Shown: positions 30,458 to 33,087 of the stretch, one piece after another | Layout of the letters: each line of letters begins with the position of its first letter | How positions within the stretch are numbered: the first letter of the stretch is position 1 | Origin: Planctomycetota bacterium | GTDB taxonomy: Bacteria; Planctomycetota; Phycisphaerae; UBA1845; UTPLA1 | Length of the DNA stretch: 36,579 bases | Direction of reading: 5' to 3' | Assembly: GCA_003576905.1 (NCBI GenBank) | Contig: QEVG01000040.1 | Location: forward strand, 1 to 36,579 | Translations under genes and position numbers: made by a program | The notes under the pieces: model-generated | Told to the model about the DNA's origin: nothing | What the model saw: the letters and a program-made list of their open reading frames with translations, nothing else | The model's database searches: none

Positions 30458-30503
30458 ACCCCGCTCTGATCGTTTGACGAACCGGTTAGCGAGCCAGAAC
30501 CTG

Positions 30504-31307
30504 ATGTCGCAGCAGAACCTCGATGTCTTCTACGAGCCGAATCTCAGGCTGACCCGCGCCTACGGGCTCCTGGGCTATAACGCTGGCTACGCCGAAGTCG
30601 TCGGCCGCGATTCGTTTGACCAGCATCAGAAAGACTTGGTTTGGCGGCTCCTGGGGGACGTCCGCATCGGCCCTGAAAGCACGGTGATCGACGTGGGGTG
30701 CGGGATCGGCGGTCCGAGCGGCTGGATCTTCGATCGCTACGGGCCGGCGCGGCTGATCGGCGTGGAGTATTGCCCGACCAGCGTGCGTGCCGCCGAGCAG
30801 CGCTGGGCCGGCCAGGTACGTCGGCCCTACTTTCTTCAGGGGGATGCCCATCGCCTGCCCCTTGCCGACGAATCGGTCGATGTCATCTTCAACCTCGAGT
30901 CGGCCCTCCACTACGCCGACAAGCGGAAGTTCATCTCTGAATGCAAGCGGGTCCTCAAGCCCGGCGGGACGCTGTGCTTGGGCGATATCTGCACTGAACA
31001 CAGGCGATTCTTCGCCTTGATTGGGCTTCTGAACCGAATCCGCACGCAATTCAGCACGCACGCCTCCCTCTGGTCCGCCGCGAGGTACATCGACACCTTC
31101 GGCTCGCTGGGCCTGAGCCTCCTTCGCCACGAGGATGTCTCGCGGCAGTCCGCCGACTCCCTACACGACGGCCTGACCGACATCGGCCGGCGCGGATGGG
31201 GCGCCGCCCGCGGCTTCCGGGGGAGATTCTTCTACCTCTGTTTTGTCGAAAAGCTTTTGCGCCGCCGCTGGCTGACCTACGATCTGTTTGCCGTCGTCAA
31301 GAAATGA
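30504..31307 (+). CDS. Class I SAM-dependent methyltransferase
   Basis: The 267-aa product, from ATG 30504, has the methyltransferase_11 fold. Motif I is VIDVGCGIGGPSG, a VEYCPTSV acidic segment follows, then QGDAHRLPLADESVDVIFNL and the RVLKPGGTLCLGD post-III motif. The N-terminal FYEPNLRLTRAYGLLGYNAGYAEVVGR (split here only for reading) and a lysine/arginine-rich end resemble small-molecule methyltransferases of the sterol/tocopherol-like kind, but the substrate is not predictable. No Shine-Dalgarno is visible. A longer reading frame upstream is Arg-rich and lies before the promoter, so it is not used. A strong terminator follows 37 bp later. Confidence 0.87.
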   Translation: MSQQNLDVFYEPNLRLTRAYGLLGYNAGYAEVVGRDSFDQHQKDLVWRLLGDVRIGPESTVIDVGCGIGGPSGWIFDRYGPARLIGVEYCPTSVRAAEQRWAGQVRRPYFLQGDAHRLPLADESVDVIFNLESALHYADKRKFISECKRVLKPGGTLCLGDICTEHRRFFALIGLLNRIRTQFSTHASLWSAARYIDTFGSLGLSLLRHEDVSRQSADSLHDGLTDIGRRGWGAARGFRGRFFYLCFVEKLLRRRWLTYDLFAVVKK

Positions 31308-31344
31308 GGGCCCGGAAGGGCCGAGTCGGGTCGGCGAAAAAAAC

Positions 31345-31380
31345 AAAGTCCGCCAGGCCGTCTTTTGCCGGGCGGACTTT
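31345..31380. terminator. Bidirectional intrinsic terminator
   Basis: AAAGTCCGCC (31345-31354) and GGCGGACTTT (31371-31380) are perfect 10-bp arms around a 16-nt loop. T residues follow on the plus strand, and an A-rich run (from 31337) lies before the left arm, giving a T-rich tail on the minus strand. It can end both the plus-strand methyltransferase transcript and the minus-strand transcript of the small gene at 31429-31530. Confidence 0.88.
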
Positions 31381-31428
31381 TTACGCTCTTGGAGAGCGGA
31401 GTAACACTCGCAGTCGAGCGAAAGCCGA

Positions 31429-31530
31429 TTACAGGGCGATGAACCCCAAGGCCGCGAGCTCTGCGAGCCAAATCACCGCTCCAATGGGCCACACAAGGAT
31501 GATTCCAAGCAACCAAAGCCACTCGCTCAT
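31429..31530 (-). CDS. 33-residue hydrophobic membrane peptide, unknown function
   Basis: ATG 31530 has a strong ribosome site, AGAGGTG (complement of 31535-31541), and ends at TAA 31429. The product MSEWLWLLGIILVWPIGAVI-WLAELAALGFIAL (split here at residue 20) is one long hydrophobic stretch with two Trp pairs or near pairs, enough for one membrane helix with a Pro in the middle. A longer reading (from 31620) is possible but that upstream part is not preceded by a good ribosome site. It is isolated: a terminator of the preceding minus-strand operon (31644-31666) lies upstream and the bidirectional terminator (31345-31380) downstream. No family recognised. It could be a regulatory peptide, a membrane-stress protein or a type I toxin-like peptide; these are guesses. 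Confidence 0.75.
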   Translation of the reverse strand: MSEWLWLLGIILVWPIGAVIWLAELAALGFIAL

Positions 31531-31603
31531 GTTACACCTCTCAAAAAAGTACATTCCGGCAGCCACATGGCTACCCGTACATGTGCGCGAAATCCTAACA
31601 AGG

Positions 31604-31609
31604 AGTATA
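31604..31609 (-). promoter_or_regulatory. Possible -10 hexamer for the 33-aa gene
   Basis: TATACT on the minus strand (complement of 31604-31609) would start a transcript near 31597 with a leader of about 67 nt. The leader contains a 6-bp hairpin CACATG...CATGTG (31564-31585). The -35 region is weak (GGTTAA at 17 bp). Confidence 0.4.
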
Positions 31610-31643
31610 TCGGTCCGCAAGCCTCATTAACCCCAGTTCCAGT

Positions 31644-31666
31644 AAAAAAAGGCGATGATTATCGCC
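31644..31666 (-). terminator. Intrinsic terminator of the dehydrogenase operon
   Basis: On the minus strand GGCGAT-AATC-ATCGCC (complement of 31651-31666) is followed by seven T (complement of 31644-31650). It stands 24 bp after the E2 stop codon, in the right place and orientation to end the E1alpha-E1beta-E2 transcript. Confidence 0.85.
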
Positions 31667-31689
31667 CCGCCCCTGCCCGGACGGCACCG

Positions 31690-33087
31690 TTACGACACCA
31701 GCAGCAGATTAAGGGGGCTCTCCAGGTAGCTCATCACGGTACGGATAAACCGCGCGCCGTCGGCGCCGTCGATGATCCGGTGATCGAACGAAAGGAACAG
31801 GGGCAGCATCTTCCGTGGAACGATTTGACCGTCCCGCACGACCGCCTTCCATTCCAGCTTGCCCATGCCGAGGATGGCCGCCTCCGGCCAGTTGATGATC
31901 GGGGTCGCCATCGTGCCGCCCAGTGCCCCGACGTTCGTCACCGTAAAGGTGCCGCCCCGCATGTCATTGATGTCCAGTTTGAAGTCCCGAGCCCGGTCGG
32001 CCAGTTCCTTCAGTTCACGGGAAATCGTCATCAGCCCCTTCCGGTCCGCGTCGCGCAGCACCGGCACCATAAGCCCCTTCGGCGAATCCACGGCGATACC
32101 GATATGCACGTATTCCTTGAAGATCATCGTGCCCGCCGCCTCGTCAAAGGAGGCGTTGAACTGCGGAAACTGCCGAAGTGCCCCCGCCACCGCCTTCACC
32201 ACGAAGGCCGTCAGGGTCAGCTTGGCCCCCTTCTCTTCGAAGATGGCCGACTGCTCCTTCCGGAACGTCTCCAGGTCCGTCACGTCCACCTCGTCGGCAT
32301 GCGTCACGTGCGGGATCGTCGTCACCGATCGGACCATCGCCCGCGCGATCGTCTTGCGAATCTGCGGCACCGCCTCAACCCGCACCGGCCCCCACTGCGA
32401 AAAGTCGGGCAGCGCCTCGCTAGAGACCTGCGCCGAAACCGGCGAGACCCGTGCCGCCGTCGGAGCCGGGGCTGCCGCCGGTCGGGGGGCCGCGCTCGGC
32501 GCCGGCGCCGCGACCGGGCCCGCGCCCTGGCCGCTCGGCCCGGCGATCATGTACCGCTCGAGGTCCTCTCGGACGATTCGCCCGCCCGGTCCGGTGCCAT
32601 GCACCTGGTTGAGGTCCACCCCCATCTCGCGGGCCTGCCGCCGAATCGCCGGTGCGGCCGGGATCGGCCCTTCGGCCGGGCGCGGCGCTTCCGCCACCGC
32701 CGCCGCCGCGCGGGACACCGATCCGTCACCGCCGACCGCCGCCGTCTGCGGCCGAACGGCCGGAGCCCCGACCGACGCCGCGGGCGCGCTGGCCGACTTC
32801 GTCGCGGCCGGCGCCGCGGCCGGCGCGGCCTTCGCCGCCGAGGCCGCTCCGCTCCCGCCGATCTCCAGCAGGACCGTGCCCACCTTGACGGTGTCACCGA
32901 CCTTGACATTCAGCTTCGAGACGACGCCCTCGAACGGAACCGGCAGCTCGACCGCCGCCTTGTCCGTTTCGACCTCCATGACCATCTGGTCGGCCTTGAC
33001 GGAGTCGCCTTCCTTGATCATCACGTTTACGATCTGGGCCTCGTGAATGCCTTCGCCCAGGTCCGGCAGTTTGAATTCTTTACCCAT
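31690..33087 (-). CDS. Dihydrolipoyl acyltransferase (E2) of a 2-oxoacid dehydrogenase complex
   Basis: E2 forms the complex core and passes the acyl group from lipoyl-lysine to CoA. The 465-aa product has one lipoyl domain (residues about 5-80, lipoyl Lys in VETDKAAVELP), an Ala/Pro linker, an E1/E3-binding domain (about 140-185, RRQAREMGVDLNQVHGTGPG), a second Ala/Pro-rich linker, and a catalytic domain ending with the DHRIIDGADGARFI active-site motif (His near 435). The order and single lipoyl domain fit PDH or branched-chain complexes; the substrate is not settled. It is the third gene after E1alpha and E1beta, but 188 bp separate it from E1beta, and that gap shows no clear promoter or ribosome site beyond GGAAAA. 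Confidence 0.93.
   Translation of the reverse strand: MGKEFKLPDLGEGIHEAQIVNVMIKEGDSVKADQMVMEVETDKAAVELPVPFEGVVSKLNVKVGDTVKVGTVLLEIGGSGAASAAKAAPAAAPAATKSASAPAASVGAPAVRPQTAAVGGDGSVSRAAAAVAEAPRPAEGPIPAAPAIRRQAREMGVDLNQVHGTGPGGRIVREDLERYMIAGPSGQGAGPVAAPAPSAAPRPAAAPAPTAARVSPVSAQVSSEALPDFSQWGPVRVEAVPQIRKTIARAMVRSVTTIPHVTHADEVDVTDLETFRKEQSAIFEEKGAKLTLTAFVVKAVAGALRQFPQFNASFDEAAGTMIFKEYVHIGIAVDSPKGLMVPVLRDADRKGLMTISRELKELADRARDFKLDINDMRGGTFTVTNVGALGGTMATPIINWPEAAILGMGKLEWKAVVRDGQIVPRKMLPLFLSFDHRIIDGADGARFIRTVMSYLESPLNLLLVS

Follow-up and report, generated by a model that had tools for sequence, protein, structure and literature searches.

A 33-codon gene for a predicted single-helix membrane peptide in one planctomycete family

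Does a 33-codon hydrophobic open reading frame, lying between a pyruvate dehydrogenase (PDH)-type operon and a methyltransferase gene, encode a protein, and what might that protein do? The question is raised by positions 31345 to 31666 of a 36,579-nucleotide stretch of planctomycete DNA (contig QEVG01000040.1, here called the window), in which the original prediction saw a self-contained transcription unit for a small membrane peptide, insulated by two terminators. Below, G000 denotes the window's own genome and other G numbers its relatives; the carriers of the peptide gene are G000, G002, and G010.

The peptide gene and its signals in the window

The features of the locus are as follows.

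30504..31307, plus strand: neighboring convergent SAM methyltransferase gene (Pfam Methyltransf_11, 5.5e-22)
31337..31380, strand not assigned: terminator hairpin after the peptide gene, 14-nt arms, 93% complementary
31429..31530, minus strand: CDS of the 33-aa predicted membrane peptide, MSEWLWLLGIILVWPIGAVIWLAELAALGFIAL (stop included), identified by homologues in G010 and G002, dN/dS below 1, and helix prediction
31535..31542, minus strand: predicted ribosome-binding site, GAGAGGTG, ending 4 nt before the ATG
31549..31580, minus strand: leader hairpin followed by TTTTTT (31548-31543); -15.7 kcal/mol, z -2.08, 6 of 200 shuffles as good
31604..31609, minus strand: -10-like box TATACT, 73 nt before the ATG, with no clear -35
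31642..31668, minus strand: intrinsic terminator of the upstream PDH-type operon, hairpin 31668-31649 with a T-rich tail
31690..33087, minus strand: E2 (dihydrolipoyl acyltransferase) of the PDH-type operon, the upstream neighbor (match below the NCBIfam cut-off)

The peptide ORF (31530-31429) has 33 codons, and its product contains no Lys or Arg and two Glu. The strong ribosome site read ahead of it is present 4 nt upstream of the ATG, and the homologues have similar ones: GAGGTG at the same distance in G002, and AAGGAG 7 nt before the ATG in G010. Among the 213 ATG starts of ORFs of 25-50 aa in the window, counted with nested starts separate and with segment and ribosome-site thresholds that we set ourselves, a transmembrane-like segment occurs together with a ribosome site in the peptide ORF alone.

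The box TATACT, which had been proposed as a possible -10 element, does stand at 31609-31604, but no -35 box is recognizable and a promoter scan of 30500-32500 scored no promoter-like site on either strand. When the last TATA[CG]T within 200 nt was chosen as the -10-like box, the window had TATACT 73 nt before the ATG, G010 had TATACT at 71 nt, and G002 had TATAGT at 66 nt. The promoter match at the G010 box (TTCGCA-17-TATACT, 9/12 bases) is within what shuffles give, with 1 found against a mean of 0.5 (sd 0.7), and at the G002 box the match is TTGACA-16-TATAGT (11/12 bases; 2 found against 0.7 in shuffles). The -10 region in G002 (L003, 1637-1684) is common to two opposed sites, TTGACA-16-TATAGT and TTGGCG-16-TATAAT, possibly a bidirectional promoter.

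The leader hairpin that had been predicted was also found, and it may be an mRNA-stabilizing stem or an attenuator; the latter look comes from the TTTTTT just before the ribosome site, a U-run that is present in the window only and not in the two homologues. The leaders of the window, G010, and G002 each fold into a hairpin, although their sequences are unrelated. Against 500 shuffles, the three hairpins had z values of -1.55, -3.04, and -1.63, with 43, 3, and 32 shuffles as good, so they are suggestive only. A search of 31200-31800 gave no Rfam family match. What the three copies have in common is a layout: a -10-like box 66-73 nt before the ATG, then a leader hairpin, then a ribosome site.

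Both framing hairpins are present as well. The upstream one (31668-31649) folds at -10 kcal/mol (z -2.65, 3 of 200 shuffles as good), and the downstream one (31380-31345) at -23.6 kcal/mol (z -4.2, 0 of 200), followed on the minus strand by G and seven T. The downstream hairpin, however, lies between convergent genes. The terminator scan missed it on the minus strand and picked up only a segment, 31358-31375, on the plus strand, at the end of the convergent methyltransferase gene; the two genes may therefore share the hairpin, although the T-run on the plus strand is short. The same scan found 5 terminator-like sites in 2001 bp of the window versus 1.6 in shuffles. The 800 bp surrounding the G010 gene gave none, and the single site in the 1000 bp surrounding the G002 gene falls inside the peptide ORF itself, so the two-terminator insulation is particular to the window genome. 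With no terminator beside the G010 gene, an intra-ORF site in G002, and a downstream hairpin set between convergent genes, insulation does not serve as the argument for a real gene that it had been taken to be.

Homologues and selection on the protein

Searched against 61 genomes, its own among them, the peptide matched eight with E no higher than 1, of which one was its own, two were convincing, and five were weak. The G010 homologue is 30 aa long and 59% identical over residues 1-27 (E 4.6e-6), and the G002 homologue is 38 aa long and 67% identical over residues 1-30 (E 5.6e-6), both in the single-sequence search. A three-sequence profile recovered the same three carriers and three weak rows from 114 genomes of the order, the three carriers and two weak rows from 397 genomes of the class, and the window's own genome only from 392 genomes of the phylum; these sets overlap, and G002 and G010 are evidently absent from the phylum draw. 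The profile E-values for the other two copies were 7.9e-16 and 5.5e-14, which lean high because both are profile members. Each carrier has one copy by the profile search. Scoring the small ORFs at 25 relatives' loci with a three-sequence profile gave 98 for the G010 and G002 copies and 18 for the next best, the G010 copy being counted twice in overlapping loci. With three mismatches allowed at most, a corrected degenerate pattern of 66 bases found exactly the three carriers among the 114 order genomes, versus 0 for the reversed control. A shorter pattern run against genome contigs matched a single one, CAADGE010000036.1 (uncultured planctomycete isolate PLA6), with the same gene as that on contig C36 of G002.

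The weak rows, L004-L008 (E 0.32-0.64), L042-L044 (0.008-0.08), and L045 and L046 (0.012-0.016), contain no isolated small ORF and were rejected. For L004, L005, L007, L008, L043, and L044 the match falls inside a 256-876-codon open frame; for L006 and L042 it lies in frames of 74 and 89 codons, opposite frames of 667 and 938 codons; and L045 and L046 have opposite ORFs of 469 and 243 aa. A pattern match on a viral contig, L047, was also rejected, as it lies within a 151-aa frame opposite a 622-aa ORF.

The three peptides had no match in NCBIfam or among solved structures, and none over cut-off in Pfam. PADLOC gave no match to the window peptide, and plasmid and phage records gave none to the single peptide query with the low-complexity filter on. 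Two faint matches were treated as chance: PLDc_N (Pfam, E 0.079, 13.4 bits against a cut-off of 23.3) and phrog_29902 (PHROGs, E 0.032, one of three members). Among the titles listed in literature searches on small membrane proteins or planctomycete small proteins, none concerns such a peptide, and small-ORF catalogues such as PMC11364881 could hold one. Within the family, the profile search did not find the peptide in 14 of the 17 genomes, including G001, which belongs to the same genus and is 97% complete; the peptide would therefore be dispensable.

The three sequences align without gaps as far as residue 24, and half of these positions (12/24) are invariant: M1, E3, W4, L5, L8, P15, I16, A18, W21, L22, A23, and E24 (M.EWL..L......PI.A..WLAE). 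Over the 24 codons, dN/dS was 0.30/0.68 (about 0.44) for G000-G010, 0.21/1.71 (about 0.12) for G000-G002, and 0.37/1.59 (about 0.23) for G010-G002, values that are rough because there are only three sequences and 24 alignable codons. Third codon positions hold 11 of 21, 12 of 21, and 13 of 27 substitutions in the three pairs. Under random placement of the changes, the expected amino acid identity was 10.8 of 24 for G000-G010, against 16 observed (P 0.0008); 10.8 for G000-G002, against 17 (0 of 5000); and 8.2 for G010-G002, against 13 (P 0.0032).

By these comparisons the peptide gene is protein-coding and under purifying selection. The conserved protein, the dN/dS values below 1, and the common layout of -10-like box, hairpin, and ribosome site together argue for a self-standing protein gene. 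The original prediction had named a frame lost in relatives, or a dN/dS near 1, as evidence against itself; the frame is kept in G010 and G002 with its protein sequence conserved, and the 33-aa hydrophobic ORF is borne out as a small membrane peptide gene. As a candidate small protein (<50 aa), its product shows coding constraint and a conserved start with a ribosome site, and its translation is predicted. A 33-codon planctomycete gene first proposed from the sequence alone thus gains comparative support, and its three members make up a small family whose signature can be tested.

Two neighborhoods and a change of place

Upstream of the peptide gene lies an operon of the order E1a-E1b-E2, in which E1 alpha matches TIGR03181 above cut-off and the NCBIfam matches of E2 and E1 beta fall below theirs. 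The gene order E2, peptide, convergent methyltransferase, convergent esterase is common to the window and G010, whereas in G001, G003, and G014 the esterase directly follows E2 with neither methyltransferase nor peptide. In G002, the methyltransferase is elsewhere and the peptide gene occupies the rlmN-tilS interval, which measures 643 nt in that genome. The suggestion that the same peptide would be found between the same flanks in relatives therefore held for G010 but not for G002. In these two unrelated settings, every copy comes with a -10-like box, a leader hairpin, and a ribosome site of its own.

In G000 and G001, of the same genus as G002, rlmN and tilS are separated by 60 and about 15-18 nt, respectively. 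Among other relatives the gap is 27 nt in G008, 41 in G003 and G014, 129 in G006, 204 in G015, 207 in G007, and more than 1 kb in G011 and G013; the comparison leaves out G016, and the loci of G004, G005, and G012 are partial. G010 and G009 have no TilS match within about 1.46 kb of rlmN, and the gaps of G006 and G015, read by eye, hold no peptide-like ORF. The loci compared include L048 (1642-2286, contig C36 of G002), L080, L084, L083, and L085. Judged by these distances, the G002 insert is clear within the genus and the gap varies across the family; with a range from about 15 nt to more than 1 kb, the junction may often take up extra DNA. By gene order, at least two clusters have gained or lost the peptide gene.

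Neither neighbor is an obligate partner. A link to PDH was rejected on the position of the G002 gene, and a link to the methyltransferase because that gene has a match (E 1e-40 or better) in 14 of the 17 family genomes, against 3 for the peptide. The methyltransferase has two matches each in G000, G002, G005, G008, G010, G011, G012, and G016, and the copy beside the peptide most resembles its counterparts in G008, G010, G002, and G012 (71-74%). Downstream of the esterase, G010 (L052, 8210-13619, minus strand) has adjacent, related-looking ORFs of 930 and 898 aa, which by eye are perhaps O-antigen-ligase-type polytopic proteins arisen by tandem duplication.

The 639-bp G002 spacer has no second copy in the 17 family genomes, so that a mobile element is not demonstrated; short pieces (about 17-47 bp, E 0.12-0.88) occur in 13 of the 17. 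A perfect 10-nt inverted repeat near the edges of the spacer (L048, 1623-1632 and 2193-2202) is within chance, about 0.3 being expected by our estimate. A bolder reading, which we regard as doubtful, is that a mobile micro-gene cassette of about 200 bp moved between the PDH and rlmN-tilS clusters and encodes a new class of acidic, proline-kinked peptide. If true, the cassette would consist of a promoter, a 5' hairpin, a ribosome site, and one membrane helix; it would have moved within one planctomycete family without a recognizable mobile element, and the new class would be capped by E-W and W-L-A-E at the two membrane faces.

Proposed role and comparison with known systems

The three peptides (33, 30, and 38 aa) have a best 19-residue hydropathy of 2.29-2.5, and each has two Glu and no Lys or Arg. 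From a three-sequence input, AlphaFold2 predicts one helix over residues 2-32 (mean pLDDT 90.3), and the hydrophobic helix is of membrane length by prediction; a single helix is the expected AlphaFold2 output for most such peptides. The conserved pairs E3-W4 and W21-L22-A23-E24 bracket the span, with the conserved P15 between them. The distance from E3-W4 to W21..E24 would be about one membrane thickness, which suggests a membrane-spanning helix with acidic, Trp-lined ends.

By analogy, the product may be a single-helix membrane micro-protein that docks on and tunes a larger membrane protein, a reading to which we give a probability of about 0.5. Well-studied membrane micro-proteins regulate transporters or respiratory enzymes. 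Under this proposal, the mRNA would start about 7 nt after the -10 box, and its 5' hairpin would stabilize it or tune translation. The peptide would insert into the inner membrane, where its proline-kinked helix and two interfacial glutamates could dock against a transmembrane helix of the larger protein, a step suggested by AcrZ- and CydX-type peptides. That partner would be encoded elsewhere, with the peptide as its regulator or accessory subunit; because the G002 copy is independent of the PDH genes, we argue that the partner is not the product of a neighboring gene.

The original prediction also allowed a type I toxin, that is, a membrane-depolarizing peptide silenced by an antisense RNA. 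Its size, hydrophobicity, helix proline, and structured leader fit, as do the patchy distribution and the change of genomic place. Passages of PMC8309996 describe the helix proline as needed for Lpt and Fst toxicity, and IbsC, ShoB, and DinQ as having no positively charged residues in their C-terminal parts; by the latter, missing charge would be compatible with a toxin. The suggestion gained nothing further, however. All three peptides combine a lack of Lys and Arg with two Glu; the PXXXG motif of the Fst/Ldr family is missing, with P15-I-G/A-A-V/I in its place; each carrier has a single copy; and PADLOC (window peptide), NCBIfam (three peptides), and Pfam over cut-off gave no match. The empty promoter scan on both strands of 30500-32500 weighs little, as it also misses the peptide gene's own promoter, and the sole opposite-strand promoter-like site in G002 points away from the gene. 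On balance we consider a toxin unlikely. A small accessory subunit of a respiratory or transport complex, of the CydX, KdpF, or CcoS kind, would agree with the single predicted helix, with Trp near both ends of the span, and with the sigma70-like promoter in G002. Yet the peptides have no Pfam match to such a family, at neither place is there an operon with a complex, and most close relatives gave no match to the peptide. Against CydX in particular, a search for cytochrome bd subunit I (PF01654) that succeeded in 5 of the 17 family genomes and 10 of 14 controls did not find it in G000, G002, or G010 (96-97% complete), which makes this candidate unlikely. Such a subunit is, in our judgment, distinctly improbable.

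The two remaining readings deny the protein its own function. The locus could be a regulatory RNA whose short ORF is incidental or a mere sensor, as in an attenuator or leader peptide; the leader hairpin and U6 of the window genome invite this, and in G002 the co-directional tilS about 320 nt downstream makes a leader peptide possible by layout alone. In the window and G010, however, the next gene is convergent, which excludes a leader peptide there, and the protein-level constraint with freer third positions, the differing leader sequences, and the empty Rfam search all make this reading very hard to sustain. A chance ORF might be suspected from its shortness and its occurrence in three genomes only, but the single-sequence E-values, the profile E-values (which lean high), and the recovery of the same three of 114 genomes by the corrected pattern, with none for its reversed control, leave that scarcely credible. 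A membrane micro-protein that tunes a larger partner is the reading we prefer.

Compared with known systems, the peptide resembles Fst, Ldr, TisB, and IbsC in length, hydrophobic helix, and helix proline, but it has no PXXXG, no positive charge, and a single copy, and no antitoxin promoter was scored in what is a weak test. CydX, the small subunit of cytochrome bd, has a short single helix, an N-terminal Trp, and an LG pair, all of which the peptide has too. The peptide differs from CydX in that it has no Pfam match, is not in a cyd operon, and occurs in carriers without a detected cytochrome bd subunit I. The CydX profile, which we take to be PF08173, gave no match to the three peptides in a Pfam scan at E up to 5, where HMMER filters may drop weak matches.

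AcrZ, KdpF, and MgtS are small bacterial membrane proteins of one helix, each of which binds a larger protein of the membrane. AcrZ is among the proteins treated in PMC7267776. Unlike these three, the peptide has no family-library similarity and no basic residue and was found in one planctomycete family only; as one more orphan membrane micro-protein, it opens no new mechanism yet. It shares with them a length below 50 aa, one hydrophobic helix, and the ease with which annotation overlooks it. On sequence grounds, and with no significant family-library match, the peptide is a narrowly distributed, previously unannotated addition to the small single-helix membrane proteins.
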